64,000 bases of DNA, taken from NCBI RefSeq assembly GCF_000241265.1, contig NZ_BAEE01000043.1, forward strand, positions 1 through 64,000. The letters are read 5' to 3'. The translations under genes and the position numbers were made by a program. This DNA comes from Gordonia araii NBRC 100433. Its GTDB lineage: Bacteria > Actinomycetota > Actinomycetes > Mycobacteriales > Mycobacteriaceae. This document shows positions 14,710 to 64,000 of the stretch, piece by piece. The first letter of the stretch is position 1. Every line of letters begins with the position of its first letter. The notes under the pieces were generated by a model. The model was not told the DNA's origin, did not search any database, and saw only the letters and a program-made list of their open reading frames with translations.

Positions 14710-14778
14710 TTTCGCATGCGAGGATGGTTCTTCGAATCCCCGAGGAATCCCCCTGAAGCATGTGCAAGGAGCCCACCT

Positions 14779-20700: not shown

Positions 20701-23700
20701 GTCGATGCCGCCGCGCTCGGCGAGTTCACCGAGCAGATCACCGGTCAGTCGGGCGTCCTCGCCGTCGCGGCGCGCACCGTCCTGCGCCAGCTCGGCCTCG
20801 ACGAGACCGCCGAGTACGATCTCGCGGTCGACGACGAGTCGGGTGTCCTCGCCGATCGTGTCGCGGCCGAACTCGGCTCGGACTGGGCACGCACCGTCGC
20901 GCCGGTCTTCGACGATCGCCGGACGGTGTTGCTCGACGACCGCTGGGCCAGCGCCCGCGCCGACCTGGCGCAGTTGTGGCTGGCCGACGCCGACGATCTC
21001 GACGCCGAGTTCGCCGATCGCACCGAAGCCTTCCGGGGCGCGGGCGAGACCGTGGCCGACCACGCGACGTGGTGGCAGGGCAAAGCCCTGGCCCGCGGCC
21101 GCGACGTGCATGCGCGGCTGTTCGCCCAGATCGCGCAGGTGGCACAGGATCCCGAGCCGGGCGTCTACGCCGACGACATCGCCGTGGTGACCGGAGCCGC
21201 CGACGGCTCGATCGCCGGAGCGGTCGTCGCCGGGCTGCTGCGCGGTGGAGCCACCGTCATCGCCACCACGTCGCGGCTGAACACCGATCGGCTGGACTTC
21301 TTCAAGAAGTGCTACCGGGAGAACGCGCGCTACGGCGCGGCGCTGTGGGTGGCGCCGGCCAACCTGGCCAGCTACACCGACGTCGACGCGCTCGCCGAGT
21401 GGATCGGCGAGGAGCAGTCGCAAACGCTCGGCGGCGCGACCGAGCTGATCAAGCCCGCCATGCGCCCGACACTGCTGTTCCCGTTCGCCGCCCCGCGCGT
21501 CGCCGGTGATCTCACCGATGCCGGTGCCCGTACCGAGGCGGAGATGAAAGTGCTGTTGTGGTCGGTCGAGCGCATGATCGGCGGCCTGTCCGGTCTGCAC
21601 GCGGACCACAACATCGACGCCCGCCTCCACGTCGTGCTGCCGGGTTCGCCCAACCGCGGCATGTTCGGCGGCGACGGAGCCTACGGCGAGGCGAAGGCGG
21701 CGCTCGACGCCGTCGTCACCCGCTGGTCGGCTGAGTCGTCGTGGGGCTCGCGCACCACGCTGGCCCACGCCCTCATCGGGTGGGTGCGAGGCACCGGCCT
21801 GATGGGCGGCAACGATCCGATGGTCGCTGCCGTCGAGGCGGCAGGCGTGCGGACGTGGAGCACCGACGAGATGGCCGCCGAGCTGCTGGCGCTCTGCACG
21901 GCCGAGCAGCGCGAGTCCGCGCGGACCGCACCGCTGCAGGCCGACCTGACCGCCGGTCTCGACCCCTCGATCGACTTGAAGGCGCTTGCCGAGGCCGCAC
22001 AAGCCGACGAGAACGGCGCGACCGACGCGTCGGCCGTCGCCGCCACCGGGTCCGCGGATGTCGCCGCCCTTCCGCACCCGGCACGCGCTCCGCACGAGGC
22101 ACCGGTCGCCTGGCCGGAGATCGACGTCGCACCGGAGGACCTCGTGGTCATCGTCGGGGCGGGCGAGGTCGGCCCGTACGGTTCCGCGCGCACCCGGTTC
22201 GACATCGAGGTGTCGGGCGAGTTGTCGGCGGCCGGCGTCGTCGAACTCGCCTGGAGCACCGGGCTGATCACATGGGAGGAGAACCCGAATCCCGGCTGGT
22301 ACGACGCGCAGACCGGCGATGCCGTGCCCGAGGCGGAGATCGCCGAGCGCTACCACGACGAGGTCGTCGCGCGCTGCGGCATCCGCCGCTACGGCGACGA
22401 CGGCGCGATGGTCGACAACTCCTCGCCGCTGCTGGAGTCGGTGTTCCTCGACGAGGACCTGACATTCACGGTCACCTCCGAGGAGGCCGCGCGCGCCTTC
22501 GTCGCCGCTGACCCCGAGCACACCCGGATCGCCGCGGTGCCCGACACCGGCGAGTTCACCGTCACCCGCCTGGCCGGCACGGAGATCCGCGTGCCGCGCC
22601 GCTTCGAACTGAGCCGCACCGTCGGCGGGCAGATCCCGACCGGGTTCGACCCGGTCCGCTGGGGCGTCAGCCCCGACATGGCGAGTTCGATCGACCGGGT
22701 CGCGCTGTGGAACCTGGTCGCCACCGTCGACGCGTTCCTCTCCAGCGGGTTCACACCCGAGGAGTTGATGCGCTGGGTACATCCGACGCTCGTCGCCAAC
22801 ACCCAGGGCACCGGCATGGGCGGCATGACCTCGATGCGGTCGCTGTACGTCGACACCCTGTTGGGCGAGTCGAAGGCCAACGACATCTTGCAGGAGGCGC
22901 TGCCCAACGTTGTCGCGGCTCACGTCGTCCAGTCCTACATCGGCAGCTACGGATCGATGATCCACCCGGTGGCGGCGTGCGCCACCGCCGCGGTCTCGGT
23001 GGAGGAAGGCGCAGACAAGATTCGCCTGGGCAAGGCGCTGTTCGCCGTCGCCGGCGGGTTCGACGACCTCGGCATCGAGGGCATCGTCGGATTCGGGGAC
23101 ATGTCGGCCACGGCCGACTCGGCGGCGATGGCCGCGCGCGGAATCGACGAGCGCCGCTACTCGCGGGCCAACGACCGCCGACGCGGCGGATTCGTCGAAT
23201 CGCAGGGCGGCGGCACGGTGTTGCTGGCCCGCGGCGATGTGGCGGCACAACTCGGTCTGCCGGTGCTCGGTGTGGTCGCGTTCGCGCAGAGCTTCGGCGA
23301 CGGCGTGCACACCTCGATCCCGGCACCCGGCATCGGCGCGCTCGGTGCCGCCCGCGGCGAACTCGACTCGCCACTGGCGCGGTCGCTGCGCGAATTGGGT
23401 TGCAGCCCCGACGATGTCGCCGTCGTGTCCAAGCACGACACGTCGACCAAGGCCAACGACCCGAACGAGTCGAAGCTGCACGAGCACCTCGCGGCGGCGA
23501 TCGGCCGCGGCGACGGTGCACCGCTGTTCGTCGTGTCGCAAAAGGCGTTGACCGGACACGCCAAGGGTGGTGCTGCGGCCTTCCAGCTGATCGGGCTGTG
23601 CCAGGTGCTGAGTGCGGGCATCATCCCGCCGAACCGGAGCCTGGACTGTGTCGACGACGACTTGGCCGTCTACGAGCACCTGGTATGGCCGACGAGCCCG

Positions 23701-24087
23701 CTGCACATGGACGGACAGTTCGAACTGAAGGCCGGCTTGCTGACCTCGCTCGGCTTCGGTCACGTGTCGGGTTTGATCGCCGTCGTGCATCCGGAGGCGT
23801 TCATCGCGTCTCTGCCGGCCGATGAGCGGGAGGCCTACCGCGCCCGCCGTGCCGAGCGGCTGCGCGACGGGCAGCAGCGCCTGCTGGAGGCGATGTGCGG
23901 CGGCGACCCGGCGTACAGCCGACCGTCCGGCCGTCGTTTCGACGACACCGCCGCTCAGGCCGAGAGCGCGCAGGAAGCCGCGCTGCTGCTCGACGGCGAC
24001 GCGCGCCTCGACGCCGAGGGAGCGTATCGCCGGGGCGCCGGAATCGGCCCGCTCGCCGGCGCGTCCGGCGCCGGATGCCACCGGTGA
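14779..24087 (+). CDS. fas: Type I fatty acid synthase, single-chain multidomain
   Basis: 3,102 residues from GTG 14779, preceded by AAGGAG. Domain order read from motifs: acetyltransferase with GHSQGC (Ser ~157); enoyl reductase ~420-750 (GGGIGTPERAAEYLSGRWS, EGGRAGGHHSWED ~584); dehydratase/hotdog with GDHNPIHTD (~1237); malonyl/palmitoyl transferase GHSVGEYN (Ser ~1448); Ala/Pro linker then ACP with DGVSSRRNQ (Ser ~1822); ketoreductase Rossmann VVTGAADGSIAG (~2135); ketosynthase with ACATAAVS (Cys ~2734) and TGHAKGGAAA. This is the mycobacterial fused alpha-beta FAS I that makes acyl-CoA primers for mycolate and membrane lipid. Length and order match the family, with no break seen. acpS overlaps its end. 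Confidence 0.97.
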   Translation: MTIDQHRISTSRTGAPSTGEALIDRIADGEAYALAFGGQGTPWLPTLAELVVDAELQRHLDQIVVAAQRLLEPVRAELAMAAPDGFDPLHWVDLFDAADLLGDEDDAAGHLPDEGALRAAAASVPGILLAQLAALASLRKQGLDTDEFPPTSVVGHSQGCLAVDAVRIGENLADHPGEGAMLALARLIGAAATVTAARRGLSAAADGSPMLSIANASPARIDQVIEQYRADTAEGEAGLPVVALRNGRRGVVVAGTAHHLAALQARCEQIAAAEADDRKRKVTGGAPFAPTFDPLGVSVAFHHPEMTDAVDLVAEWAQRCGLDTAWARRQASAVLVEPVDWVAIIDEVTADGAKWVLDLGPSDVATRLTSSLIRGAGVGVVPASLRGGQRNLFAPGGIPEVARRWDRYAPKLAVLPDGRRVIDTAFTRLTGRSPMLLAGMTPTTVDPAIVAAAANAGHWAELAGGGQVTEEIFAENVARLTELLEPGRQAQFNALYLDPYLWKLQLGGKRLVQKARAQGAPIDGVIVSAGIPELDDAVALVDELVEAGLHYVAFKPGTVAQIRDVVRIAAEVPHHPVIVQIEGGRAGGHHSWEDLDDLLLATYAELRDRANIVICVGGGIGTPERAAEYLSGRWSLAHDYPLMPLDGILIGTAAMATAEATTSPEVKQLLVQTAGCDDWIGAGHAAAGMASGRSQLGADIHEVDNSASRAGRLLDEVAGDAEAVAARREEIIAALEGTAKPYFGDVTTMTYEQWLRRYATLAVGEPGADLPWADITWQQRFTEMLQRAEARLHPQDRGTFESLFDDAVDAHASVDRLVAAYPAATSDILHPADVAFFLGLCRSPGKPVNFVPVIDGDVRRWWRSDSLWQAHDPRYGADEVCVIPGPVAVAGITEADEPVGDLLDRFERELVDELTTAGDPAVEVDARRRHLAGAAGPIAAALSAADVRWAQRIVPNPVLRLGAPDRWEIVGEDLAEHAPSGATLRAHDGGSDSSVRLDLVVPIGSTSTTIPLTVTPAVLDGGAPLVGIDDAGTAMGEIVRVAAGGDLTSTDVSSDGEVTARASVSWDPNLVADHRGVTTASLPSTLAPEPGLTVPDVFVGLSWPSVFALVGAARTDAGTPVVEGLLDLVHLDHAIAVHAPAPGERAELSVTATLRGVTDTTVGRVLAVDVELTDGATRLASMRERFAIRGRLGDGDLADPVRAGGLPDDERDATRKFLRAATIVAPRAMDGFALVSGDHNPIHTDVNAAALAGLGEPIVHGMWLSAAAQQVVTARDGRRAGAPRAIEGWTIRFLGMVRLGDQVDVRVDRVGIDRGREVVEVSMKVGGELVAAATALLAAPLTVYAFPGQGIQSKGMGLEARSRSAAARDVWDRADAHTRAALGFSILAVVRDNPTTLVANGTTYHHPDGVLFLTQFTQVAMATLGVAQVAELREAGGFVESAITAGHSVGEYNALAACAGVLPLEAVLEVVFQRGEAMHHLVPRDAKGNSDYRMAAIRPSQFGLADDDVDGFVAGVAAESGEFLEVVNLNLRGSQYAIAGTVAGLAALEKEIERRVAEFGGKRAFILVPGIDVPFHSTVLREGVPAFRERLDDLLPEHVDPEILVGRYIPNLVPRLFNLSREFITEIAELVPSDPLNDVLADFASWSVRPAELTRVVLIELLAWQFASPVRWIETQDLLFGPTSQGGLNVGRFVEVGVKSAPTLSGLANNTLKLDRFAAADADVLNVERDSAVLLGADEGAEPEEDVAPEPSSQEQAPAQEASAPAAPAAAPAPAASTGPRPDDLAFEPADAVRAVIAQWTKIRVEQIGAADTIEALCDGVSSRRNQLLLDIGAELGLGAIDGAAEAPLTALGESVNTLARGYRPLGPVLTDAVGDQLRRIAGPLGKRANYLTERVTDVWQLGSGWATHAAVAVALGTREGDSVRGGSLGDLADGPIGNLAALDSVIDRAIQSVGTAHGVAVALPASGGEAGGTVDAAALGEFTEQITGQSGVLAVAARTVLRQLGLDETAEYDLAVDDESGVLADRVAAELGSDWARTVAPVFDDRRTVLLDDRWASARADLAQLWLADADDLDAEFADRTEAFRGAGETVADHATWWQGKALARGRDVHARLFAQIAQVAQDPEPGVYADDIAVVTGAADGSIAGAVVAGLLRGGATVIATTSRLNTDRLDFFKKCYRENARYGAALWVAPANLASYTDVDALAEWIGEEQSQTLGGATELIKPAMRPTLLFPFAAPRVAGDLTDAGARTEAEMKVLLWSVERMIGGLSGLHADHNIDARLHVVLPGSPNRGMFGGDGAYGEAKAALDAVVTRWSAESSWGSRTTLAHALIGWVRGTGLMGGNDPMVAAVEAAGVRTWSTDEMAAELLALCTAEQRESARTAPLQADLTAGLDPSIDLKALAEAAQADENGATDASAVAATGSADVAALPHPARAPHEAPVAWPEIDVAPEDLVVIVGAGEVGPYGSARTRFDIEVSGELSAAGVVELAWSTGLITWEENPNPGWYDAQTGDAVPEAEIAERYHDEVVARCGIRRYGDDGAMVDNSSPLLESVFLDEDLTFTVTSEEAARAFVAADPEHTRIAAVPDTGEFTVTRLAGTEIRVPRRFELSRTVGGQIPTGFDPVRWGVSPDMASSIDRVALWNLVATVDAFLSSGFTPEELMRWVHPTLVANTQGTGMGGMTSMRSLYVDTLLGESKANDILQEALPNVVAAHVVQSYIGSYGSMIHPVAACATAAVSVEEGADKIRLGKALFAVAGGFDDLGIEGIVGFGDMSATADSAAMAARGIDERRYSRANDRRRGGFVESQGGGTVLLARGDVAAQLGLPVLGVVAFAQSFGDGVHTSIPAPGIGALGAARGELDSPLARSLRELGCSPDDVAVVSKHDTSTKANDPNESKLHEHLAAAIGRGDGAPLFVVSQKALTGHAKGGAAAFQLIGLCQVLSAGIIPPNRSLDCVDDDLAVYEHLVWPTSPLHMDGQFELKAGLLTSLGFGHVSGLIAVVHPEAFIASLPADEREAYRARRAERLRDGQQRLLEAMCGGDPAYSRPSGRRFDDTAAQAESAQEAALLLDGDARLDAEGAYRRGAGIGPLAGASGAGCHR

Positions 24088-45715: not shown

Positions 45716-46147
45716 TCAGCACCCGGGTTCTTGCCAGCCCGCGTCGCCGTCGGCGTAGGTCTCGTACTTCCAGATCGGGACGGACGACTTGACGTCGTCG
45801 ATCACCGCGGCGCACACGGCGAACGCCTCGCGCCGATGAGCCGAGCTGACCGCGACGACGACGGCGACCTCGCCGATCGTCAGCTCCCCGACGCGATGTT
45901 GCGCCGCGACGCGCACCTCGCGAGTTCGGTGGCGCTGGCAGGCCTGTTCGAGGAATTCCGCGGCGCGCGGGTGCGCCTCGTAGCGCAGCGAGGTCACGGT
46001 GCGGCCGCCGTGGTGGTCGCGGACGGTGCCGGTGAATGTGACGACCGCGCCGTCGGAGTCGGTGCGGACCGCTGCCTCGCAATCGCGGGGGTCGAGCCGC
46101 CGGCCGACGATCGGTTCGGGCACGCCCGCCCCCCGGGTGTCAGTCAT
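45716..46147 (-). CDS. moaE: Molybdopterin synthase catalytic subunit
   Basis: 143 residues. MoaE motifs: GAVVTFTGTVRDHHGGR, SLRYEAHPRAA, RVAAQHRVGELTIGEVAVVVAVSSAHRREAF and KSSVPIWKYE (catalytic Lys). With MoaD it converts precursor Z/cPMP to molybdopterin. The ATG overlaps the moaC-mog stop by 8 bp, so the order on the minus strand is moeA, moaC-mog, moaE. Confidence 0.95.
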   Translation of the reverse strand: MTDTRGAGVPEPIVGRRLDPRDCEAAVRTDSDGAVVTFTGTVRDHHGGRTVTSLRYEAHPRAAEFLEQACQRHRTREVRVAAQHRVGELTIGEVAVVVAVSSAHRREAFAVCAAVIDDVKSSVPIWKYETYADGDAGWQEPGC

Positions 46148-47141
46148 GACCGCCGCCGTCGGCGAGGTGGAACAGGTGGGTGATCAGCGGGTCGAGTACC
46201 GATATCCCGTCGCGCACCCCGCCGCGAGAACCGGGCAGATTCACGACGAGGGTGCGGCCGGCGAAGCCGGCGAGACCGCGGCTCAACGACGAATAGGGGG
46301 TCGACGCCCGGCCGGTCTCGCGCAGCGCCTCGGCGATGCCGGGTAATGCCGTCGTCAGCAGCGGCGCGGTCGCCTCCGGCGTGTGATCGTCGGATGTGGG
46401 GCCGGTTCCACCGGTGGTGATCAGCAACGACGGATGATCGGCGAGGGCGTCGGCGAGCGCGCGGCCGATGTCAGCGTCGGCCACGATTTCGGGGTCGGCG
46501 ACCTGAAATCCGCGCTCGGTCAACCATTCCAGCAGAATCGGTCCGGTGGCGTCGGCGCGTTCACCCGATGCCGCCCGCGTCGATGACACGACGATGCGGG
46601 CCCGTTTGCCCGGATAGACGTCGACCGTTCCGGGGGCGGCGGTGCGCGCGGGCTGATCGCGGGTCCACTCACCGCTTTTCCCGCCGGTCTTGCTGTGCAG
46701 CCCGACGTCGGTGACGGTGGCCGCCGGATCGACGGCTTTGACCATGTCGTGCAGTGTCAGCCCGGCGACGCTGACAGCGGTCAGCGCCTCCATCTCGACG
46801 CCCGTCTTGCCGGTTGTGATCGCGGTCGCGGTGATGTTCACGTGGTCATCGCCGAGGGTGAAATCGACGTCGACGGAATCCAGCGGCAGCGGATGGCAGA
46901 GCGGGATCAACTCCGCGGTCCGTTTCGCGCCCATGATCGCGGCGACGCGCGCCACGGCCAGCACGTCGCCCTTGGGGTGGCCGCCGGAACCGATGAGGGC
47001 GACGACCTCCGGTGTCGTACGAAACACGCCGCGCGCCTGCGCGACCCGGCGGGTGACCCGCTTGCCGGAAACATCGACCATCCGGGCGGTTCCGGCGGCA
47101 TCGACATGCGACAGCCGGGGATCTAGGGGGTCAGTGGCCAC
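46140..47141 (-). CDS. moaC: Fused MoaC (cPMP synthase) and MogA/MoaB domain protein
   Basis: 333 residues, GTG 47141. Residues ~5-155 are MoaC (MVDVSGKRVTRRVAQA, IPLCHPLPLDSV, KTGVEMEALTAVSVAGLTLHDMVKA). Residues ~175-325 are MogA/MoaB (VVSSTRAASGERADATGPILLEWL, LITTGGTGPTSDDHTPEAT, RGLAGFAGRTLVVNLPGS). The two act in cPMP formation and in adenylylation of molybdopterin. Such fusions are known in actinobacteria. Overlaps moeA by 19 bp. Confidence 0.93.
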   Translation of the reverse strand: MATDPLDPRLSHVDAAGTARMVDVSGKRVTRRVAQARGVFRTTPEVVALIGSGGHPKGDVLAVARVAAIMGAKRTAELIPLCHPLPLDSVDVDFTLGDDHVNITATAITTGKTGVEMEALTAVSVAGLTLHDMVKAVDPAATVTDVGLHSKTGGKSGEWTRDQPARTAAPGTVDVYPGKRARIVVSSTRAASGERADATGPILLEWLTERGFQVADPEIVADADIGRALADALADHPSLLITTGGTGPTSDDHTPEATAPLLTTALPGIAEALRETGRASTPYSSLSRGLAGFAGRTLVVNLPGSRGGVRDGISVLDPLITHLFHLADGGGHD

Positions 47142-48340
47142 AGCGGCACCTCCATGTCCGGAGTGAGTTCGGTGACGGCGGCGTCGACCTCGACGAGAAC
47201 GTCGGCCCGCGCGGCCGTGGCGATGAGGTGGCTGCCCGGGCCGCCGACGATCTCGACGCGCGGCACGCCGTCGCCGCCGGCGCGACGCCCCCGCAGGAAT
47301 TGAGTCTTGCCCGGCGGTGAGGTCGTGGGGGAGACCACGCGGCAGCGTTCGCCGGCGACGGCGGGCAGACCGGCGACGGCGCGCAGCGCGTCACGCACCA
47401 GAACCTCGAAAGAGACCAGGACGCTGACCGGGTTGCCCGGCAGGCTGATCACCGGCACCCCTTGCCAGCGCGACAGTCCCTGCGGACCGCCCGGCTGCAT
47501 GGCGAGGGCGCCGAACCAGGATTCTGTCGCACCCGCGGAAGAATCGGCCAACAAGTCCCGCACCGGCTCGCGTTCGCCCGCGGACACACCGCCGGAGGTG
47601 AGGACGACATCGGCCGATCTCGTGGCCTCGTCGAGACGTTCCCGGAACTCGCCGGGCCCGTCGCCGACGACCGCGACGCTCACGACCTTCGCGCCGTGCG
47701 AGGCGGCGAGGGCGGCGAGGGCGACCGAGTTGGATTCGTAGATCTGCCCGGGCCGCAGCGAGGCGGACGGGGGAGCCAACTCAGAACCGGTGACGATGAT
47801 CGCGACGTCGGGCCGCCGCCACACCGAGACCGCCGCCACGCCGGCGGCGGCCAGCGCCCCGAGGTGGCGCGGCGCGAGCGTCGTCCCCGATTCCACGATC
47901 ACCTCGCCCGCGGCGATGTCCGAGCCGGCGCGGCGCACGAAGGCGCCCACCGACGGCCGCGCGTCGAACGTGACGGTGGACCCTTCGCCGGCGGCGACCT
48001 CGTGCGATTCCTCCACGGGAATCACCGCGTCCGCGCCCTGTGGGACGGGTGCGCCGGTCATGATCGCACTGGCGGTTCCGCGCGGCAGGGGATCTGCGGC
48101 CGAGCCGGCGAATACCCGCTGCACGACCGGCAGGGCCACCCCCTCGGCGACGTCCGCGGCGCGCACGGCAAAGCCATCCATCTGCGAATTGTCGAACACC
48201 GGCAGCGCGGTCGTGGCCGTCGCGGTCCGGGCCGTGACCAGCCCGTACGCGTCACCGACATCGATCTGGTCGACCGCCGCGATCGGGCGCAGCAGGGCGG
48301 CGATCGCGCTCCGATGCTCGACCACGGGACGACGGGACAT
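47123..48340 (-). CDS. moeA: Molybdopterin molybdotransferase
   Basis: 405 residues. MoeA landmarks: FDNSQMDGFAVRA near residue 50, VTGSELAPPSA, VLTSGGVSAGEREPVRD and LPGNPVSVLVSFEVLVRDALR, then the C-terminal beta-barrel. It inserts molybdate into adenylylated molybdopterin. First of the moeA-moaC-mog-moaE operon, divergent from moaA. A second MoeA-like domain is fused to MobA at 61618. Confidence 0.94.
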   Translation of the reverse strand: MSRRPVVEHRSAIAALLRPIAAVDQIDVGDAYGLVTARTATATTALPVFDNSQMDGFAVRAADVAEGVALPVVQRVFAGSAADPLPRGTASAIMTGAPVPQGADAVIPVEESHEVAAGEGSTVTFDARPSVGAFVRRAGSDIAAGEVIVESGTTLAPRHLGALAAAGVAAVSVWRRPDVAIIVTGSELAPPSASLRPGQIYESNSVALAALAASHGAKVVSVAVVGDGPGEFRERLDEATRSADVVLTSGGVSAGEREPVRDLLADSSAGATESWFGALAMQPGGPQGLSRWQGVPVISLPGNPVSVLVSFEVLVRDALRAVAGLPAVAGERCRVVSPTTSPPGKTQFLRGRRAGGDGVPRVEIVGGPGSHLIATAARADVLVEVDAAVTELTPDMEVPLWPLTP

Positions 48341-49431: not shown

Positions 49432-49681
49432 CGCTCCGGCAACGGTGACGGTGACCTACTTCGCCGCACTGGCCGACCGAACCGGGTGCCGCCGCGAGGA
49501 ACTCGATCTGGCCGTCGCCACCGTCGGCGGGCTGCGCGCCGCCGTCGGCCAACGACACGGCGCCGACGTGGAGGCCTTGGCCAGACAGTCGTCGGTGTTG
49601 ACCGGAGACGAGCTGGTCCGCGACGACGAGGCCGCGATCGGTCCGGTCGTCGACCTACTTCCCCCCTTCGCAGGAGGCTAA
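49424..49681 (+). CDS. moaD: MoaD-like sulfur-carrier protein
   Basis: 85 residues, GTG 49424 overlapping moaA. Ubiquitin fold of MoaD type ending in PPFAGG, the diglycine that is thiocarboxylated and donates sulfur to MoaE. Followed 2 bp later by modA. Length fits (81-90). Confidence 0.92.
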
Positions 49682-49683
49682 CG

Positions 49684-50409
49684 ATGAGGAAACGACTGGC
49701 GGCGGCCGCCGTCGGCGCGGTGATGGCGGCGTCGCTGGCCGGATGCGGCTCCGACGATTCGCCCACGATTCGGGTGCTGGCGGCGGCGTCCCTGGTGGAT
49801 GTACTCAAGCCGCTGGTGGCGGCGTACGAGCAGGCCAATCCGGGCGCGTCGGTCCAGGTCGACACGGGTGCTTCGTCGGCCCTGGTGCAGAAGCTCGAGT
49901 CGGGCGCCACAGGCGACGTTCTCGTCACCGCCGACGAGGCCACGATGACGAAGGCCGTCGACGCGGGAGTGGCCCGCGATCCGAAGGTGGTCGCGACGAA
50001 CCGGCTGGTCATCGTCGTGCCGAACGGTAACCCCGGCAAGGTCGCCGACGTGCGGTTCTTCGCGGTGCCGGGTAATCGCGCGGTGGTCTGCGCGCGCGAG
50101 GTGCCGTGCGGAGCGGCGGCGGAGAAGGCGATCGCCGCGGTCGGCGGCACGCCGCAGCCGATCAGCCGCGCCACCGACGTCCGCGCCGCGCTCGGCTCGG
50201 TCACCAGCGGTGAAGCCGATGCCGCACTCGTCTACGCCACGGACGCGGCGTCGGCGGGCGACCGGGTGGAGACCATCGCCATCCCGGATGCCCCGGTGAA
50301 CCGGTATCCGGCGTCGGCCTTGACCGACGCGGGTGCCTCTTTCGTCGCGCTGCTCGCCGGACCGGACGGACAGCGCATCTTCCGGGAGGCGGGATTCGGG
50401 CCGGCGTGA
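49684..50409 (+). CDS. modA: Molybdate ABC transporter substrate-binding lipoprotein
   Basis: 241 residues from ATG 49684. Lipobox SLAGC. ModA pattern: IRVLAAASLVDVLKPLVAAYEQANPGASVQVDTGASSALVQKLESGATGDVLVTADEATM (ligand loops AAASL and ASSAL), then RLVIVVPNGNP and GEADAALVYATDA. It captures molybdate or tungstate. The modB GTG overlaps its stop. Confidence 0.94.
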   Translation: MRKRLAAAAVGAVMAASLAGCGSDDSPTIRVLAAASLVDVLKPLVAAYEQANPGASVQVDTGASSALVQKLESGATGDVLVTADEATMTKAVDAGVARDPKVVATNRLVIVVPNGNPGKVADVRFFAVPGNRAVVCAREVPCGAAAEKAIAAVGGTPQPISRATDVRAALGSVTSGEADAALVYATDAASAGDRVETIAIPDAPVNRYPASALTDAGASFVALLAGPDGQRIFREAGFGPA

Positions 50410-51242
50410 ACAGCTCACGTCCGGCCCGCGCCGTGAGCGCGGTCGGTCTCCTCGGTCTCGCCGTGCTTCTCGCGCCGCTGGCGGCCTTGGTGCTGACCGC
50501 ACCGTGGGGTCAAATGTGGGGACTGCTCACGTCGTCGTCGGCGCGCTCGGCCCTGGTGCTGTCGCTGGCTTCGGCATCGCTCGCGACGGTGATCGCGACG
50601 GTCCTTGGCGTCCCCCTGGCGGCGCTCCTCGCCGGGGGCATTCGGTCGGATCGGGTGCGCACCGCCGTGCGCCTGGCGGTCCTGGTGCCGATGGTGCTGC
50701 CGCCGGTGGTGGTCGGCGCCGGGCTGCTGGCCGCCTTCGGCCGGCGGGCGCCGATCGGCTCGCTGCTCGATTCGTGGTTCGGGTGGACGCCGACCTACAC
50801 GTTCGCCGCCGTGGTTCTCGCCCAGCTCGTCGTGGCCATGCCCTTTCTCGTCATCAGCGTCGAGTCGGCGTTGCGGAGCCGCGACATCGAGGCCGAGGAG
50901 GTGGCCCACACCCTCGGCGCCGGGCGATTGGCCACTTTCTGGCATGTGACCTTGCCCATGATCCGTGTCGGGATCGGAGCGGGCGCGCTGTTGTGCTTCG
51001 CCCGCTGCCTCGGCGAATTCGGCGCGACGGTCACCTTCGCCGGCAACGTCGAAGGTGTCACCCAAACCCTTCCGCTGGCCATCTACCTGGCACTTGTCCG
51101 CGATGACCAGTCCGCGGTGGCCATGTCCGTCGGCCTGGTCCTGGTGAGCGTGGCGGTGCTCGTCGGGCTGCGCCGGCGATGGGTCCCCGGACTGTGGCCG
51201 CAGTCGCAGACGGACCGCACACGGTCGAATACCGTCGCGTGA
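50406..51242 (+). CDS. modB: Molybdate ABC transporter permease
   Basis: 278 residues, GTG 50406 (GTGA). About six membrane helices; the inner-membrane EAA-type loop EEVAHTLGAGRLATFWHVTLPMIRVGIGAG contacts the ATPase. The family is ModB/CysW-like. The next gene is narK and not the ATPase modC, which is absent from the window, so the ATPase must come from elsewhere. Confidence 0.9.
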   Translation: MNSSRPARAVSAVGLLGLAVLLAPLAALVLTAPWGQMWGLLTSSSARSALVLSLASASLATVIATVLGVPLAALLAGGIRSDRVRTAVRLAVLVPMVLPPVVVGAGLLAAFGRRAPIGSLLDSWFGWTPTYTFAAVVLAQLVVAMPFLVISVESALRSRDIEAEEVAHTLGAGRLATFWHVTLPMIRVGIGAGALLCFARCLGEFGATVTFAGNVEGVTQTLPLAIYLALVRDDQSAVAMSVGLVLVSVAVLVGLRRRWVPGLWPQSQTDRTRSNTVA

Positions 51243-51249
51243 GGTTCTG

Positions 51250-51265
51250 GTTACGTACCGGTGAC
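51250..51265 (+). promoter_or_regulatory. GlnR-like site upstream of narK
   Basis: GTTAC-N6-GTGAC fits the GlnR half-box pattern gTnAC-n6-GnnAC with AC-n9-AC spacing, 76-91 bp before GTG 51341. GlnR controls nitrogen assimilation genes in actinobacteria, so nitrate uptake may answer to it. Confidence 0.5.
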
Positions 51266-51340
51266 CGCGGGTGCCGAATTCCGCAACACGCGATCCATAG
51301 CGTCGGGCCCACCAAGACAGCCGCAGCGGTGGGAGGCAAC

Positions 51341-52753
51341 GTGAAAGCAACGCGAGATCGGTCGGACCAGCAGATCCTGGCCAAGTGGGATCCGGAGAAC
51401 GTCGAGCAGTGGGACAACGGCGGGGCGAGGATCGCGCGCCGCAACCTGATCTGGTCGGTGGCCGCCGAACACATCGGTTTCTCCGTGTGGTCCCTGTGGT
51501 CGGTCATGGTCCTGTTCATGCCCACCGACGTCTATGGGCTGTCGACCGGCGACAAGTTCTTGATCGGCGCCACGGCGACGCTCGTCGGCTCGCTGCTGCG
51601 GTTCCCGTACACCATGGCGACGACGCGTTTCGGCGGCCGCAACTGGTCGGTGTTCTCCGCGTTCGTCCTCATCATCCCGGTCAGTGCGACGATCTGGATC
51701 CTGGCCAATCCGGGACTCCCGCTGTGGGTCTATCTCGTCTGCGCCGCGCTGACGGGACTGGGCGGCGGAAACTTCGCGTCGTCGATGACCAACATCAACG
51801 CGTTCTACCCGCAGCGCCGCAAGGGCTGGGCGCTGGGACTCAACGCGGGCGGCGGCAACCTCGGCGTGCCCGCCGTGCAGCTCGTCGGCCTGCTGATGGT
51901 CGCCTGGATCGGCGACGCCGCTCCGTACTGGGTGTGCGCGATCTACCTGGTGCTGCTGACCGCTGCCGGCATCGGCGCGGCGCTGAAAATGGACAACCTC
52001 GCCATCCCCGGCGTCGACCTCAAGGCGATGGGCCGTGCCGTCGCCAACCGGAACACGTGGATCATCGCCGTTCTCTACATCGCCACCTTCGGGTCCTTCA
52101 TCGGCTATTCCTTCGCGTTCGGACAGGTGCTCGCCGGATACTTCCGCGACCACGGGGACACCCCGGCGCAGGCCGCGCTGCACGCCGCGCAGATCGCCTT
52201 CATCGGGCCGCTGCTCGGATCGATCAGCCGCGTCTACGGCGGCAAACTCGCCGACCGCATCGGCGGCAGTCGCGTGACGCTGTGGGTGTTCGTCGGAATG
52301 ACGGCCGCGGCGACGGTACTCATCGTCGGTGAAGGATCGCTCGCCTTCTACGTCGTCGGCTTCATCGTCCTGTTCGTGCTGTCGGGCATGGGGAACGGAT
52401 CGGTCTACAAGATGATCCCGTCGGTGTTCGACGCGGCCGCGCAGTCGAAGCGATTCCCGACGGCCGAGCAACGCGCCGACTATTCGCGGGCGCTGACGGG
52501 CGCGGTGATCGGCATCGCGGGAGCGGTCGGCGGCCTCGGGGGAGTCGGAATCAACCTGGTGCTGCGCCAGTCCTACCTGAGTTCCGGTGCGGCCACCTCG
52601 GCGTTCGTCGTATTCGCCGGCTTCTACGTCGTCGCCGCCGTCATCACGTGGGCCGTCTACCTGCGCGTGCCGCGTGCGGCCGCGGGCGACACCGTCGAGG
52701 TGTCCGGTGCCGAGATCGTCGAGACACCCGAGGTTTCTGAGAGACTGGGGTGA
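51341..52753 (+). CDS. narK: Nitrate/nitrite transporter, NarK/NarU family
   Basis: 470 residues from GTG 51341 with GGGAGG ten bases upstream. About 12 transmembrane helices of the MFS nitrate porter type; GGGNFASSMTNINAFYPQRRKGWALGLNAGGGNLGVP carries the two nitrate signature glycine-rich motifs (one in helix 5, GGG.N), and a second comes late (GAVGGLGGVGINLVLRQSYL). It imports nitrate or exports nitrite. The following regulator overlaps it by 4 bp. Confidence 0.92.
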   Translation: MKATRDRSDQQILAKWDPENVEQWDNGGARIARRNLIWSVAAEHIGFSVWSLWSVMVLFMPTDVYGLSTGDKFLIGATATLVGSLLRFPYTMATTRFGGRNWSVFSAFVLIIPVSATIWILANPGLPLWVYLVCAALTGLGGGNFASSMTNINAFYPQRRKGWALGLNAGGGNLGVPAVQLVGLLMVAWIGDAAPYWVCAIYLVLLTAAGIGAALKMDNLAIPGVDLKAMGRAVANRNTWIIAVLYIATFGSFIGYSFAFGQVLAGYFRDHGDTPAQAALHAAQIAFIGPLLGSISRVYGGKLADRIGGSRVTLWVFVGMTAAATVLIVGEGSLAFYVVGFIVLFVLSGMGNGSVYKMIPSVFDAAAQSKRFPTAEQRADYSRALTGAVIGIAGAVGGLGGVGINLVLRQSYLSSGAATSAFVVFAGFYVVAAVITWAVYLRVPRAAAGDTVEVSGAEIVETPEVSERLG

Positions 52754-53880
52754 TGATCGCCGACGTGACGACCCAGAGCGGGCTGCGCGGATTCACCGTG
52801 GCGATCACCGCCGCCCGTCGCGCCGACGAGTTCGCCATGCTGCTCCAGCGCCGTGGGGCCCAGACTCTCAGCGCCCCGGCGATGGCCATCATCCCGCTGG
52901 CCGACGATGTCGCGCTGCGCGCCGCGACCGACGACATCATCGCCACGGCGCCCGATCTGCTGATCGCCACCACGGGCATCGGGTTTCGCGGCTGGGTGGA
53001 GGCGGCGGAGGAGTGGGGGCTGGCCTCCGCGCTGATGTCTCAGCTGGCGACCACCCGGGTACTGTCCCGCGGGCCGAAAGCGACCGGGGCGCTGCGCGCG
53101 GCGGGTCTGCGCGAGGAGTGGTCGCCGGAGTCAGAGTCGACCACCGAGGTCTTGGCTCACCTGCCCGACGACCTGTCCGGGATGCGGATCGCCGTGCAGC
53201 TGCACGGGGCGACCGACGACTGGGATCCCAATCCCGGGTTCCTGGCGGAGCTTCGCCGGCGGGGTGCCGAGGTGATCGGGGTGCCGGTCTACCGCTGGAC
53301 CGCACCGGCGGACCAGGACCGATTCGACGCGCTTCTCGGTGAGATCGCTTCCGCCCGCGTCGATGCCGCCGCGTTCACGTCCGCCCCGGCCGTGGCGGCG
53401 ATGCTCGAACGCGCCAAGGAGCTGGGCCGGTCCGGTGAATTGCATGCGGCGTTGAACGGCCCGGTGGTGGCGTACTGCGTCGGCCCGGTGACCGCGGGTC
53501 CACTGCGGGACGCCGGCATCCCCAGCGTCGCGCCGGAGCGGATGCGGTTGGGTGCGCTCGCCCGCCTCATCGGCGACGATCTGCCGAAGCGGCGTCCCGA
53601 ACTCTCCGTGGCAGGACGCCGGGTCGGCGTGCGCGCCAACGCGGTCGTCGTCGACGGCGAGACGCGCGAGGTCTCGCCGTCGGGATTGGCGCTCATGCAG
53701 GCTTTGGCCGCCAACCCGGGCGAGGTCGTGTCCCGGTCGGAACTCCTCGCCCTGCTTCCGGTCGCCGGCGGCGACGCCCACGCCGTCGAGGTGGCCATCG
53801 GCCGCCTCCGCTCGGCACTGGGGGCGCGGGATCTGATCGCGACCGTCGTCAAGCGCGGCTACCGCCTGGCGGTGGACTGA
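52750..53880 (+). CDS. HemD-like domain fused to winged-helix DNA-binding domain
   Basis: 376 residues. Start GTG 52750 (GTGATG) or ATG 52753. Residues ~10-265 look like uroporphyrinogen-III synthase (FTVAITAARRADEFAMLLQRRGAQ; SAPAVAAMLERAKELG; VAYCVGPVTAGPLRDAG). Residues ~285-376 form an OmpR-type winged helix (GLALMQALAANPGEVVSRSELLALLP... HAVEVAIGRLRSALG.RDLIATVVKRGYRLAVD). The same fusion lies next to nitrate genes in mycobacteria. It likely senses or makes tetrapyrrole and regulates nitrate/siroheme genes, by inference. Confidence 0.9.
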   Translation: MMIADVTTQSGLRGFTVAITAARRADEFAMLLQRRGAQTLSAPAMAIIPLADDVALRAATDDIIATAPDLLIATTGIGFRGWVEAAEEWGLASALMSQLATTRVLSRGPKATGALRAAGLREEWSPESESTTEVLAHLPDDLSGMRIAVQLHGATDDWDPNPGFLAELRRRGAEVIGVPVYRWTAPADQDRFDALLGEIASARVDAAAFTSAPAVAAMLERAKELGRSGELHAALNGPVVAYCVGPVTAGPLRDAGIPSVAPERMRLGALARLIGDDLPKRRPELSVAGRRVGVRANAVVVDGETREVSPSGLALMQALAANPGEVVSRSELLALLPVAGGDAHAVEVAIGRLRSALGARDLIATVVKRGYRLAVD

Positions 53881-53884
53881 GCGG

Positions 53885-56176
53885 TCACCCCGCCGGTTCG
53901 AGCCGGACCACAACCGCTTTCGACACCGGCGTGTTGCTCTCCAGGGCGGTGCTGTCGAGCGGGACGAGAACGTTCGCCTCCGGGAAGTACGCCGCGGCGC
54001 AGCCTCGCGCGGTCGGGAACGCGACGACGCGCAACCCGCGCAACACCCGGTCGGGCTGGTCGGCCCATTCGCTGTAGACATCGACGTGCTGGCCGTCGCG
54101 CAGACCGAGTTCGGCGAGGTCGTCGGGGTGGACGAAGACGACGTGTCGCCCCTTCTTGATGCCCCGGTACCGGTCGTTGAGGCTGTAGATCGTGGTGTTG
54201 AACTGGTCGTGGGAACGCACCGTCTGAAGCAGCAGCCGCCCCGGCGGGCATTCGACGTGTTCGAGCTCGTTGACCGTGATTCGCGCGCGCCCGGTCGCGG
54301 TGTCGAAGCGGCGTTCGTCGCGCGGACCGTTGGGCAAGACGAAGCCGTCCCGCGTCCGCGTCTTCGCGTTGTAGTCCGCACAGCCGGGTACGACTCGCGC
54401 GATGTGATCGCGAATCACGTCGTAGTCGCGGATCATCGCCGGCCAGTCGATGCCGTGGCGATCGCCGAGGGTCGCGTGCGCCATCCCCGCGACGACCGCG
54501 GTCTCCGACCGCACCTGGTCGGAGATCGGCGGGATCTGTCCGTGCGAGGCGTGTACGGCGCACACCGAATCCTCCACCGTGACGTACTGCGGGCCGGACT
54601 CCTGCAGGTCGACCTCGGTGCGTCCGAGTACCGGCAGGATCAGCGCCTCCTCGCCGGTGACGACGTGGGAGCGATTGAGCTTGGTCGACAACTGGACGGA
54701 GAGTCGCGTCTTTCGCATCGCCGACTCGGCGACGCGCGTATCGGAGATCGCGCCGAGCAGATTGCCGCCGAGCCCGACCCACACCTTGACCCGGCCGGCG
54801 TCGAGCGCCCTGATGCCGTGCACGGCGTCGACGCCGTGGTCGCGGGGCGGATCGAAGCCGAACTCCGCGGCGAGAGCGTCGAGAAACGAATCGGGCATCT
54901 GCTCCCACACGCCCATCGTGCGGTCGCCCTGCACGTTGCTGTGGCCGCGGATGGGGGAGGCGCCGGCGCCCGGACGGCCGATATTACCGCGCAGTAGCAG
55001 CAGGTTGACGATCTCTTTGATGGTGTCGACGCCCTTGCGGTGCTGGGTGATGCCCATCGCCCAGCAGACGATCACGCGCTCGGCGCCGATATAGCGCGCG
55101 GCGAGTTCGTCGATCTCCTCCGACGGGACGCCGGTGGCCCGCGCCACCTCGCCGTCGTCGAGCGCGGCCAGGTGCTCGGCGAACGCCTCGAAACCGTCGC
55201 AGTACCGTTCGATGAACTCGTGATCGAGCACGGTGCCGGGCGCCGCCGCTTCGGCCGCCAAGACGCGTCGGGAGACCGCTTGCAGCAATGCCATGTCCCC
55301 GCCGGAGCGGATCTGGATGAACTGGTCGGCGATCTTGAGTGCCTTGCCCAGATAGCCGCGCACCTGCTGCGGGTCCTTGTAGCCGATGAGGCCCGCCTCG
55401 GGGAGCGGATTGATCGCGACGATCGACGCGCCGTTCTTCTTGGCGTGCTGGATGGCGGTGAGCATCCGCGGATGGTTCGTGCCGGGATTCTGGCCCATGA
55501 TCACGATGAGATCGGCCTCGGCGAAGTCCTTGTACGCGACGGTCGACTTGCCGATGCCGAGGGAGTACTACATGGCCGCACCGGTGGACTCGTGACACAT
55601 GTTGGAACAGTCGGGCAGATTGTTGGTGCCGAACGCGCGTGCGAACAGTTGGTAGACGAATGCCGCCTCGTTGGAAGCGCGCCCGCTCGTGTAGAAGGCG
55701 GCCTCATTCGGATCGTCGAGTCCGCGCAGCCGATCCGCGACGATGGCGAAGGCGGTGTCCCACGAGACCGGCTCGTAGTGATCGGAATCCTTCGCCTTGT
55801 ACACCGGCTCGATCAACCGGCCCTGCTGTCCGAGCCAATACTCGCTCTTGTCCCGCAGCGAGCTGATCGGGTTCTCGCGCCAGAAGGCGCGCTCGACCTT
55901 CAGCGGCGTCGCCTCCCAGGTGACCGCCTTGCCGCCGTTCTCGCAGAATTCCGCGAGTTTGCGGTGCTCGGGATCGGGCCACGCGCAACTCATACAGTCG
56001 AAGCCGTCCTTGTGGTTGATCTTCGACATCAACCGCACGGTGCGGGTCAGCCCCATCTGCTTGATAGCGGGTTCCATCGAGTGGAACACCCCGCCGATCC
56101 CCGCCGCGTACGTCTTGGGTTCGCCCACTTCGATATCCGCGTCCGTGTAGTCCTCGCGGGGTGCCTTGGCGCTCAC
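53885..56176 (-). pseudogene. FdhA/YdeP-like molybdopterin oxidoreductase interrupted by in-frame TAG
   Basis: The reading frame begins at GTG 56176 (GTGA overlap with fdhD) and continues to 53885 (763 codons), but codon 203 (55570-55568) is TAG. The residues before it, CSNMCHESTGAAM, and after it, YSLGIGKSTVAYKDF then GQNPGTNHPRM, are in the same frame and match the FdhF/YdeP family motif CSNMCHESxGxxLxxxLGIGKGTV in which the aligned position is a sense codon. No base is lost, so it is a nonsense change, not a frameshift. Bis-MGD-binding motifs continue to the end (SVQLSTKLNRSHVV; SPIRGHSNVQGDRTMG). Likely inactive or truncated; an internal ATG at 55504 could restart the last 539 residues. 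It could also be a sequencing error. Confidence 0.75.
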
Positions 56177-57054
56177 GGCGTGCCTGCTTTCGCCGTCTCG
56201 ACCGCTTCCCGGGCGCTGATGCGGTCGGCGCGGCTGTAGATGACCATCGAATCGTCGCGGAGGAAGCCGACGAGGGTGAGACCGGCGTCGACGGCGAGGT
56301 CGACCGCCAGCGACGACGGTGCCGACACCGCCGCGAGGATCGGTATTCCGGCCATGAGCGCCTTCTGAGTCAGTTCGAAGCTGGCCCGCCCGGACACCAT
56401 GAGTGCGCATCCGCGTGCGGGCAGGCGATCGTTCATCAGTGCCCACCCGACCACCTTGTCGACCGCGTTGTGCCTGCCGACGTCTTCGCGGGACACCAGC
56501 AGTTCGCCGGTGCCGGCGTCGAAGAGCCCCGCCGCATGCAGTCCGCCCGTACGGTCGAACACCGCCTGCTGCGCGCGCAGCGCGTCGGGAAACCCGACGA
56601 GTACCTCGGCATCGAGGCGGGCTTGGTCGTCGGCGACGGTGTGGCGCGACGCGGTGCGCACCGAGTCGATCGTCGCCTTGCCGCACAGCCCGCACGCACT
56701 CGTCGTGGCGAAAGCGCGTGTGAGGCTCGGATCGGGCGGCGCGACGCCGGGTGCCAGTGACACGTCGAGGACGTTGTAGGTGTTGAGTCCGTCGGCGGTC
56801 GCGCCGGCGCAGTAGCGGGCGGAGGCGAAGTCCTCCGAGGCGCCGATTACTCCCTCGGACACCAGAAACCCCGCGGCGAGCTCGACATCGTGGCCCGGCG
56901 TGCGCATGGTCACCGCGAGCGAGCGTCCGGCCACCCGGATCTCGAGGGGTTCTTCGACCGCGAGGAAGTCGGCGCGCTCGGATCGCGACCCCGGGCGGTC
57001 GGCACTGCCGACGGTGAGACGAGAGATTCTGCGGCGAGCCGTGATGCGGGACAC
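56173..57054 (-). CDS. fdhD: Formate dehydrogenase sulfurtransferase FdhD
   Basis: 293 residues. FdhD motifs: [32 protein letters not shown], the persulfide cysteines [11 protein letters not shown] (CxxC), [20 protein letters not shown] and [36 protein letters not shown]. It passes sulfur to the Mo centre of formate dehydrogenase and is needed for its activity. It is coupled to the interrupted fdhA-like gene, so its partner is damaged. Confidence 0.95.
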
Positions 57055-58881: not shown

Positions 58882-61464
58882 TCAGGCGTTGGGCTCGGCC
58901 GCCGCGACCGGGGCGTTCGGCATGGGCGGTGTGCCGAGAAGCACCGGAACCTTGCGGCCGTTGTTCTCGGCGAAACTCACCGTCGGGTCGGGCGTGCCGG
59001 GGGCGTTGACGAAGGAGACGAAGCGCGACAGCTTGTCCGGGTCGTCGAGCACGCCCTTCCACTCGCATTCGTAACCCTCGACGTGGCGCGCCATATCCGC
59101 CTCGAAGTCGGCCGCCAGGCCCAGGCTGTCGTCCACCACGACGGCTCGCACATGGTCGAGGCCGCCCTCTATGCGCTCCATCCACGGTGCGGTGCGCTCC
59201 AGACGCTCCGCGGTGCGGATGTAGTACATGAGGTAGCGGTCGATGTACCGGATCAGCGTCTCGGTGTCGAGATCGCCGGCCAGCAGTTGCGCGTGGCGCG
59301 GGGTCATGCCGCCGTTGCCGCTGACGTAGAGATTCCAGCCTTTGTCGGTGGCGATGACGCCGACGTCCTTGCCGCGCGCCTCGGCGCATTCGCGGGCGCA
59401 ACCCGAGACGCCCATCTTGATCTTGTGCGGCGAGCGCAAACCGCGGTAGCGCAGTTCGAGATCGATCGCCAGCTGCACGGAATCCTGCTGGCCGTACCTG
59501 CACCAATCCGAGCCGACACAGCTCTTCACCGTGCGCAGCGATTTCCCGTACGCCTGCCCGGACTCCATCCCGCCCTCGACGAGGCGCCGCCAGATCTCCG
59601 GCAGCTGGTCGACCGTCGCGCCGAACATGTCGATGCGCTGGCCGCCGGTGATCTTCGTGTACAGGCCGAAGTCGCGGGCGATCTCGCCGATCAGGATGAG
59701 GTGTTCGGGAGTGATATCGCCGCCGGGCACGCGAGGCACCACCGAATAGGTGCCGTTGCGCTGGATGTTCGCCAGGAAATGGTCGTTGCTGTCCTGCAGC
59801 GAGGCCTGCTCGCCGTCGAGGATGTGGTCGGAACTGGTGGAGGCCAGGATCGACGCGACGGTCGGCTTGCAGATGTCGCAGCCGGTGCCCGACCCGAATC
59901 GCTGGATCAGGCCGGAGAAGGTACGGATCCCGCTGGCTTGTACGAGCTCGAACAGCTCGGCCCGCGAGACGTCGAAGTGCTCGCACAGCGCGGTGCTCTG
60001 TTCGACCCCCGAATCGGCCAGCACCTGCGAGAGCAGCGGCACGCACGAGCCGCACGCCGTGCCGGCGCCGGTGCACTTCTTCAGGTCGGCGACCGTGCAT
60101 GCGCCGTCGGCGATCGCCGAGCACAACGTGCCCTTGCTGACGTCGTTGCAGGAACAGATCTGCGCGTCGTCGCCCAGGGCGCCGACACCGATGGCCGCCG
60201 CACCGTCGGTGGCCGGCGAGATCAGGCTGACCGGGTCGCCGGGCAGCGTCTGGCCGACCAGGGGACGCAGCAGCCCGTATGAGCTGGCGTCACCCACGAG
60301 GACGCCGCCGAGCAGCGTTTGCGCATCGTCGGAGAGGACGAGCTTGGCGTAAGTGCCGTTGATCGGATCGCTGACCACCACGTTGAGTGCGCCATCGGTC
60401 TGACCGTGGGCGTCGCCGAAGCTGGCGACATCGACGCCGAGGAGCTTGAGCTTCGTCGATAGGTCGGCGCCGGGGAACTCCGCGTCGCCGCCCAGAAGCC
60501 GGTCGGCGACCACCTCGGCGGTGGCGTAGCCGGGCCCGACGAGGCCGTAGCAGCGGCCTTGCACGGCCGCGACCTCGCCGATCGCGAAGATCGCCGGGTC
60601 TGAGGTCGCGCAGCCGAGGTCGGTGAGGATTCCACCGCGTTCCGCGACGTCGAGCCCGGCGTCCCGGCCGAGCTCGTCGCGGGGGCGGACACCGGCCGCG
60701 AACACGAGCAGAGCGGCGTCGACGACGGTGTCCTCACCAAGCGTGACCCGGAGGCCACCGCCGTCGACGGTCTCGATGTTCGACGTGGCGACCCCCAGCG
60801 ACACGTCGATCCCGAGCTCGCCCACCATGCGGGCAAGATGTTCGCCGCCGGCCTCGTCGACCTGCTGCGGCATGAGTCGCGGGTTGTACTCGACGACGTG
60901 GGGACGCAGGCCGAGCTGACGCAGCGCGTTGGCGGCCTCCAACCCAAGGAGACCGCCGCCGACGACGATGCCGACGGCATCGGGGTTGTTCGCCAACGCG
61001 CGCTGGGCGTCGTCGCGGATCGCGTCGAGGTCGTCGAGGGTGCGGTACACGTGGCAGGCGTCGGCGTCGTGGCCGGGAACGGGAGGGACGAAGGCGTAGG
61101 AGCCGGTGGCCAGCACCAGCGCGTCGTAGGCGACGGTCTGTCCGTCGGCGAGCGTGACGACGCGGGCATCGCGGTCGAGACCGGTGACCGCGTTGCCGAG
61201 GCGCAGCTCGACCTGCTCGTCGCTGCCGTAGTCGTTGCCGGTGAGGGCGAGCGCCGAGCGCTCCCACTCGCCGACGTAGCTGCTCAACCCGACGCGGTCA
61301 TAGGCGGCGTCGGCCTCCTCGCCGAGGATGACGACGCGCCAGCGGTTGTCCTGGTCGCGGTTGCGGAGTGCTTCGACGAAGCGGTGGCCCACCATGCCGT
61401 GGCCGACGACGACCACGGTCCGTGGCTGCGCGGGGGGCTGGGGCTGTGCGGGCGCGGATGCCAT
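58882..61464 (-). CDS. nirB: NAD(P)H nitrite reductase large subunit
   Basis: 860 residues from ATG 61464 with AAGGAGGAA just upstream. N-terminal FAD/NAD domains (VVVVGHGMVGHRFVEAL; LATGSYAFVPPVPGHD; GVGALGDDAQ...), a [2Fe-2S] bacterioferritin-like region CSCNDVSKGTLC...CTGAGTACGSC, then siroheme/4Fe-4S Cys in CVGSDWC and CARECAEA. It reduces nitrite to ammonium. First gene of nirB-nirD-cbiX. Confidence 0.96.
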   Translation of the reverse strand: MASAPAQPQPPAQPRTVVVVGHGMVGHRFVEALRNRDQDNRWRVVILGEEADAAYDRVGLSSYVGEWERSALALTGNDYGSDEQVELRLGNAVTGLDRDARVVTLADGQTVAYDALVLATGSYAFVPPVPGHDADACHVYRTLDDLDAIRDDAQRALANNPDAVGIVVGGGLLGLEAANALRQLGLRPHVVEYNPRLMPQQVDEAGGEHLARMVGELGIDVSLGVATSNIETVDGGGLRVTLGEDTVVDAALLVFAAGVRPRDELGRDAGLDVAERGGILTDLGCATSDPAIFAIGEVAAVQGRCYGLVGPGYATAEVVADRLLGGDAEFPGADLSTKLKLLGVDVASFGDAHGQTDGALNVVVSDPINGTYAKLVLSDDAQTLLGGVLVGDASSYGLLRPLVGQTLPGDPVSLISPATDGAAAIGVGALGDDAQICSCNDVSKGTLCSAIADGACTVADLKKCTGAGTACGSCVPLLSQVLADSGVEQSTALCEHFDVSRAELFELVQASGIRTFSGLIQRFGSGTGCDICKPTVASILASTSSDHILDGEQASLQDSNDHFLANIQRNGTYSVVPRVPGGDITPEHLILIGEIARDFGLYTKITGGQRIDMFGATVDQLPEIWRRLVEGGMESGQAYGKSLRTVKSCVGSDWCRYGQQDSVQLAIDLELRYRGLRSPHKIKMGVSGCARECAEARGKDVGVIATDKGWNLYVSGNGGMTPRHAQLLAGDLDTETLIRYIDRYLMYYIRTAERLERTAPWMERIEGGLDHVRAVVVDDSLGLAADFEADMARHVEGYECEWKGVLDDPDKLSRFVSFVNAPGTPDPTVSFAENNGRKVPVLLGTPPMPNAPVAAAEPNA

Positions 61465-61506
61465 GACGTTCCTCCTTGGGGCGTTGGGACCAAGGTAGGA
61501 ATCGGG

Positions 61507-61535
61507 TGTTGCGCGAGTGTTGCCAAGACTGTTGC
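61507..61535 (-). promoter_or_regulatory. Three phased TGTTGC (GCAACA) repeats upstream of nirB
   Basis: TGTTGC starts at 61507, 61518 and 61530, spaced 11 and 12 bp, close to one helical turn. On the nirB strand two of them read AC-n9-AC, the GlnR half-site spacing. They lie 43-71 bp from the nirB start. Confidence 0.5.
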
Positions 61536-61561
61536 GCAGACATGACAAATATGGCTGCCGT

Positions 61562-63357: not shown

Positions 63358-64000
63358 CTAATACACATCCCGCACATATCGGTGTTCGGCGGCGAGGGCG
63401 GCGACGTAGGAGTCGGCCATGTGAGGGGACATGCGTCCCTGTTCGGCGACGATTTCGCGCAAGGCGTCGTCGACGTCGCGGGCCATCTGATCGGCGTCGC
63501 CGCACACGTAGACGTGCGCGCCGCGGTGGATCCAGCTCCACAGTTCTTCTGCGTTGGCCCGCATCCGGTCCTGGACGTAGACCTTCTCCTCCTGGTCGCG
63601 GGAGAACGCCAGATCGAGCTTGGTGAGCACGCCGGTCGAACGCATCTTCGCGAGCTCGTCGCGGTACAGGTAGTCCGTCGCCTCGTGGCGCTCGCCGAAG
63701 AACAACCAGTTCTGCCCGGTGGCCCCGGTGCGTTCGCGGTCGTGCAGGAAGCCGCGGAACGGGGCGACGCCGGTGCCCGGACCCACCATGATCATCGGCG
63801 CGCCACCGTCGTCGGGCGGGCCGAATTTGGCGTTGGGTGCCACGAAGATCCGCATCGGCGAGCCCGGTTCGGCATCGGCGAGGTAGGTCGAGCACACGCC
63901 GTGGCGTTGAGTGGCCGCCGGTCCGTCGGGCGTCGTGGGTGTGAAGCGAACGGCGGAGACCGTGATCTCCACGCGCGTGGGGTCGGCCAGCGGCGACGAC
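63358..64000 (-). CDS. C-terminal NADPH-flavoprotein part of a probable assimilatory nitrate reductase, partial
   Basis: The coding frame runs off the right window edge; 214 residues are visible. SSPLADPTRVEITVSAVRF is the FAD-binding beta-strand region of CysJ-like reductases, MVGPGTGVAPFRGFL and WLFFGERHEATDYLY bind NADPH/FAD, and YVCGDADQMARDVDDAL is the NADP helix; the C-terminal Tyr closes the family. In related actinobacteria this module is fused to a molybdopterin nitrate reductase or to a sulfite reductase-like partner. With nirB and mobA beside it, nitrate reductase is the likelier identity, but the catalytic part is outside the window. Confidence 0.82.
   Translation of the reverse strand, partial: SSPLADPTRVEITVSAVRFTPTTPDGPAATQRHGVCSTYLADAEPGSPMRIFVAPNAKFGPPDDGGAPMIMVGPGTGVAPFRGFLHDRERTGATGQNWLFFGERHEATDYLYRDELAKMRSTGVLTKLDLAFSRDQEEKVYVQDRMRANAEELWSWIHRGAHVYVCGDADQMARDVDDALREIVAEQGRMSPHMADSYVAALAAEHRYVRDVY

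Follow-up and report, generated by a model that had tools for sequence, protein, structure and literature searches.

In Gordonia araii NBRC 100433, an fdhF-like gene for a molybdopterin oxidoreductase of the FdhF/YdeP family is interrupted by a single in-frame TAG at codon 203. The gene occupies 53885..56176 on the minus strand of the window, the 64,000-nucleotide stretch of DNA analyzed here. We attribute the interruption, with good though not complete confidence, to a recent nonsense mutation in an otherwise intact gene that was functional until lately. Under this scheme, one nonsense mutation at codon 203 would inactivate the oxidoreductase gene downstream of fdhD: translation would halt after 202 residues, leaving a product that is missing the bulk of the molybdopterin-binding enzyme, and activity would be expected to be lost. 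A base-call error is the main competing explanation, while recoding, splitting and leaky decoding of the stop fare far worse.

The interrupted gene and its neighbourhood

Translation of 53885-56176 on the minus strand gives 763 codons and a terminal stop, with one internal stop, at codon 203 (55568..55570), where bases 55570-55568 read TAG. The first-pass annotation had described a 763-residue frame broken at this codon, and both the translation and the bases bear it out. The upstream piece (55571..56176, minus strand) comprises 202 codons and ends eight residues past a cysteine codon at position 194. The downstream piece (53885..55567, minus strand) comprises 560 codons, stays in frame, is conserved, and keeps its natural stop. 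The residues flanking codon 203 are CSNMCHESTGAAM before it and YSLGIGKSTV...GQNPGTNH after it.

The family assignment rests on TIGR01701 (FdhF/YdeP family), a profile of 744 positions with a curated cut-off of 582 bits. The upstream piece matches positions 2-179 (E 4.2e-66, 224 bits), and the downstream ORF, taken from 55504, matches positions 204-743 (E 1.4e-193, 645 bits) and exceeds the cut-off alone. The two halves match where they should along the profile and in the expected order, as the earlier reading of both sides of the TAG as FdhF/YdeP sequence implied. Both pieces also match the Pfam molybdopterin domain, and the downstream piece matches the dinucleotide-binding domain too. The difference from the family is the one TAG, which deprives the gene of an uninterrupted reading frame; judged by its profile matches, fdhF appears to be a broken member of TIGR01701. 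The 560 conserved in-frame codons after the TAG, together with the continuous frame at this site in every relative fetched (see below), argue that the interruption of this frame is not due to chance.

The upstream neighbour is fdhD (56173..57054, minus strand), as in the FdhF/YdeP family. It is intact, encodes 293 aa, scores above the cut-off of NF001943, and overlaps the start of fdhF by 4 bases (GTGA), which agrees with the coupling of the two genes proposed earlier. An NCBIfam scan named further neighbours: a MoaC/MoaB fusion (46140-47141), a MoeA-like protein below the MoeA cut-offs (47123-48340), ModA (49486-50409), ModB (50406-51242), a NarK-type transporter below its cut-off (51179-52753), uroporphyrinogen-III synthase (52750-53880), and NirB (58882-61548). 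A fusion of assimilatory nitrate reductase-like and CysJ-like flavoprotein parts, below curated cut-offs, begins within the window (63358-64000) and runs past its end; it is 1407 aa long (L171:359-4582), and its stop codon is TAG. Three of the ten neighbouring ORFs gave no family match in the scan. By these family names, fdhF sits among nitrate-assimilation and molybdenum genes. Fifteen plasmid records match the region, none of them across most of its length. Elsewhere in the window, the plus strand carries a 3123-aa ORF (14716-24087) that we take, from its size, to be perhaps a type I fatty acid synthase.

The cluster is collinear with contig C35 of a same-genus genome, G015, over ~26 kb in four blocks of 76-87% DNA identity. 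In this comparison, the fdhF TAG is the only stop within any family-named gene: no in-frame stop was found in ModA, ModB, the NarK-type transporter, uroporphyrinogen-III synthase, FdhD, NirB, or the nitrate reductase-like fusion. The G015 frames for ModB and for the ORF at 58869-58447 align across stops at 50211 and 58884, which lie upstream of the starts at 50406 and 58869, respectively. A third stop, at 71708, is in a frame that overlaps another G015 ORF, which aligns better and without a stop.

Codon 203 in relatives

We searched 60 related genomes, and the G. araii genome itself, with the downstream fdhF ORF. Long matches (E < 1e-130), stop-free in the part searched, are present in 23 of the 36 same-genus genomes. 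Another ten have distant matches only, G013 has none, and G019 and G027 carry broken copies. In G034 (L025), one of the 23, the upstream piece matches only residues 173-202, its last 30, and the N-terminus of this copy may be lacking or diverged.

For codon 203, 109 relatives were fetched (L004-L112, with L008 and L040 the same in sequence). The frame is continuous across the site in all 109, with a sense codon in each; the only stop anywhere in these relatives is in L012 (G019), at another site. Position 203 is variable, with 12 residue types: Ala (26), Gly (19), Thr (15), Ser (12), Gln (11), His (7), Ile (5), Val (4), Asn (4), Arg (3), Leu (2), and Met (1). CAG and GAG had both been proposed as the parent codon; glutamine, present in 11 of the 109, keeps the former plausible, and glutamate occurs in none.

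The intact syntenic orthologue is L004, in the collinear region of G015, and thus a relative carries an intact gene at the same place, as expected for a recent pseudogene. In its one stop, otherwise conserved sequence, and intact orthologue in a relative, fdhF resembles bacterial genes recently inactivated by a single nonsense change, with no notable difference. G015 is exceptional among same-genus genomes: its long match is 90% identical to fdhF, and all others are at most 58%. Among the named relatives, which are the best 80 of at least 587 confirmed matches, six Leucobacter genomes come closest (83-87% identity). Since this likeness exceeds that to every same-genus genome except G015, despite a 16S identity to Leucobacter massiliensis of only 89%, fdhF has probably moved between lineages by horizontal transfer. 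The loci tied to the Leucobacter likeness are L004, L033-L037, and L041. By 16S, the G. araii genome is 95% identical to two Williamsia genomes and 94% to three Mycobacterium/Mycolicibacterium genomes and one Rhodococcoides, with no match in one Rhodococcus among the 10 genomes compared; identity to Tsukamurella is 94.4% over 1101 bases, and the comparison with G015 gave no match. These values would fit a Gordonia-like genus.

Recent mutation, base-call error or decoding of the stop

Selection was gauged by the Nei-Gojobori method, comparing fdhF, its stop codon skipped, with L004. The dN/dS ratio is 0.099 overall, 0.079 before the TAG, and 0.105 after it. At columns where all six Leucobacter orthologues carry the same residue, the G. 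araii gene and L004 each have 11 amino-acid changes of their own, and both differ at a further 15. Across 163 near-invariant columns (at least 98% conserved in 108 loci, L004 itself among them and the divergent L032 left out), fdhF deviates at one and L004 at none. The low ratios on both sides and the single deviating column uphold the first-pass view that the rest of the gene is intact. In a crude dating model, in which neutral change was taken as ten times faster, drift of the downstream part without constraint over 10% of its own branch has a Poisson P of 0.016; a conditional test, which is more cautious, puts P at 0.105 for 10% and 0.049 for 15%. On these estimates, neutrality over a share of the branch larger than roughly 10-15% would be unlikely. 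Progressive decay was rejected, given the low dN/dS and no excess of own-specific changes. The low dN/dS, the balanced changes, and the dating model together imply that the stop is either recent or not real. As best we can read these data, fdhF would have been under purifying selection until just before the TAG arose.

A stop that is not real would be a wrong base call in a gene that is intact in the organism. This explanation is a minority one, though it deserves to be taken seriously: the gene is otherwise undamaged, with low dN/dS on both sides and its conserved columns kept; a single stop without further decay is just what such an error would leave; and the assembly is a draft in 98 contigs. 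Two observations count against it. First, the seven family-named neighbours compared with G015 are free of in-frame stops over the ~26 kb, giving no visible sign of a high local error rate, although substitutions that make no stop would escape notice. Second, the damage to other copies in the genus seems to go beyond a single base: G031 (L119) has a second FdhF-family copy broken by stops and frameshifts, G006 (L151) a second copy broken by an apparent frameshift, and G027 (L153) a remnant with deletions. A long FdhF-family match in G019 (L118) carries one TAG elsewhere, roughly 128 codons further on; a TAG common to both genes was rejected, and the two are regarded as independent. As far as their sequences tell, these FdhF-family copies are each broken in a different way, which makes gene loss an expected event in the genus. 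We infer that the TAG is genuinely present in the organism and that a recent nonsense mutation accounts for it. The earlier ranking of nonsense mutation, strain polymorphism, and sequencing error above read-through likewise finds support in the G015 orthologue, the low dN/dS, and the variable position.

Recoding or read-through of the TAG into a full-length enzyme is very improbable, even though the 560 downstream codons remain in frame with low dN/dS, which speaks in its favour. None of the 109 relatives has a stop at codon 203, and the 12 residue types found there imply that no special residue is called for. The cluster's nitrate reductase-like gene also terminates in TAG, as does its G015 orthologue at the same place. 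Selenocysteine is encoded by TGA, and the fdhF stop is TAG. L004 aligns with E. coli FDH-H (PDB 1aa6) over residues 120-431 (E 6.2e-45), with Cys194 opposite the selenocysteine (X, position 140). FDH-H thus has selenocysteine where fdhF and L004 have cysteine, specified by an ordinary Cys codon, and residue 203, the site of the fdhF stop, lies nine residues later. A selenocysteine formate dehydrogenase was rejected on these two grounds, the identity of the stop and the intact Cys codon 194. Of 46 tRNA matches in the genome, none has a CTA anticodon (anticodons by ARAGORN; an unusual tRNA could escape RF00005), and the PylS C-terminal domain had no match in the genome; in control searches, only one of 14 genomes passed the PylS cut-off, in keeping with the rarity of this family. 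With the stop itself not conserved at any of the 109 loci, pyrrolysine and amber suppression were rejected, and read-through keeps its earlier place as the least likely option.

Equally remote is the prospect that low-level decoding of the TAG by near-cognate tRNAs keeps the downstream part under selection; nothing found points to such phenotypic read-through, which, if true, would be a case in a metabolic gene of an actinobacterium. That the halves are separate functional proteins, the second restarting internally, for example at the GTG at 55504 (a possible start, the 22nd codon after the TAG), is hardly credible, as the cysteine aligned with the FDH-H selenocysteine is on the upstream piece, most of the cofactor-binding domains are on the downstream piece, and none of the 109 relatives is split at codon 203. 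The TAG is most likely the mark of ordinary recent gene loss or of a base-call error and not of a hidden coding trick.

Formate metabolism and probable FdhF-family loss

No second FdhF-family copy was found in the G. araii genome, either by the downstream-ORF search or by a TIGR01591 profile search. The TIGR01591 matches are fdhF itself and three proteins named by family scan, the nitrate reductase-like fusion, NuoG, and NarG, and a second intact fdhF copy was accordingly rejected. With fdhF inactivated, the genome would hold an intact fdhD but no other FdhF-type client for it among the matches found.

The fdhF product is probably a formate dehydrogenase, by its family and by analogy with Pseudomonas putida. 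PMC10308882 reports that formate processing in P. putida draws on the FdhF/YdeP proteins PP_0256, which is cotranscribed with fdhD, and PP_4596; work cited there has P. putida formate oxidation almost unchanged after loss of fdhD alone. Our literature search found nothing on fdhF and fdhD, or on formate dehydrogenase pseudogenes, in Gordonia. By this analogy, the strain is predicted to be without FdhF-type formate-processing function, and its fdhD would have lost its usual client. A metabolic reconstruction of the strain should include FdhF-type formate oxidation only if the TAG proves to be erroneous. The gene would be a further case in a genus where FdhF-family copies appear broken in several genomes.
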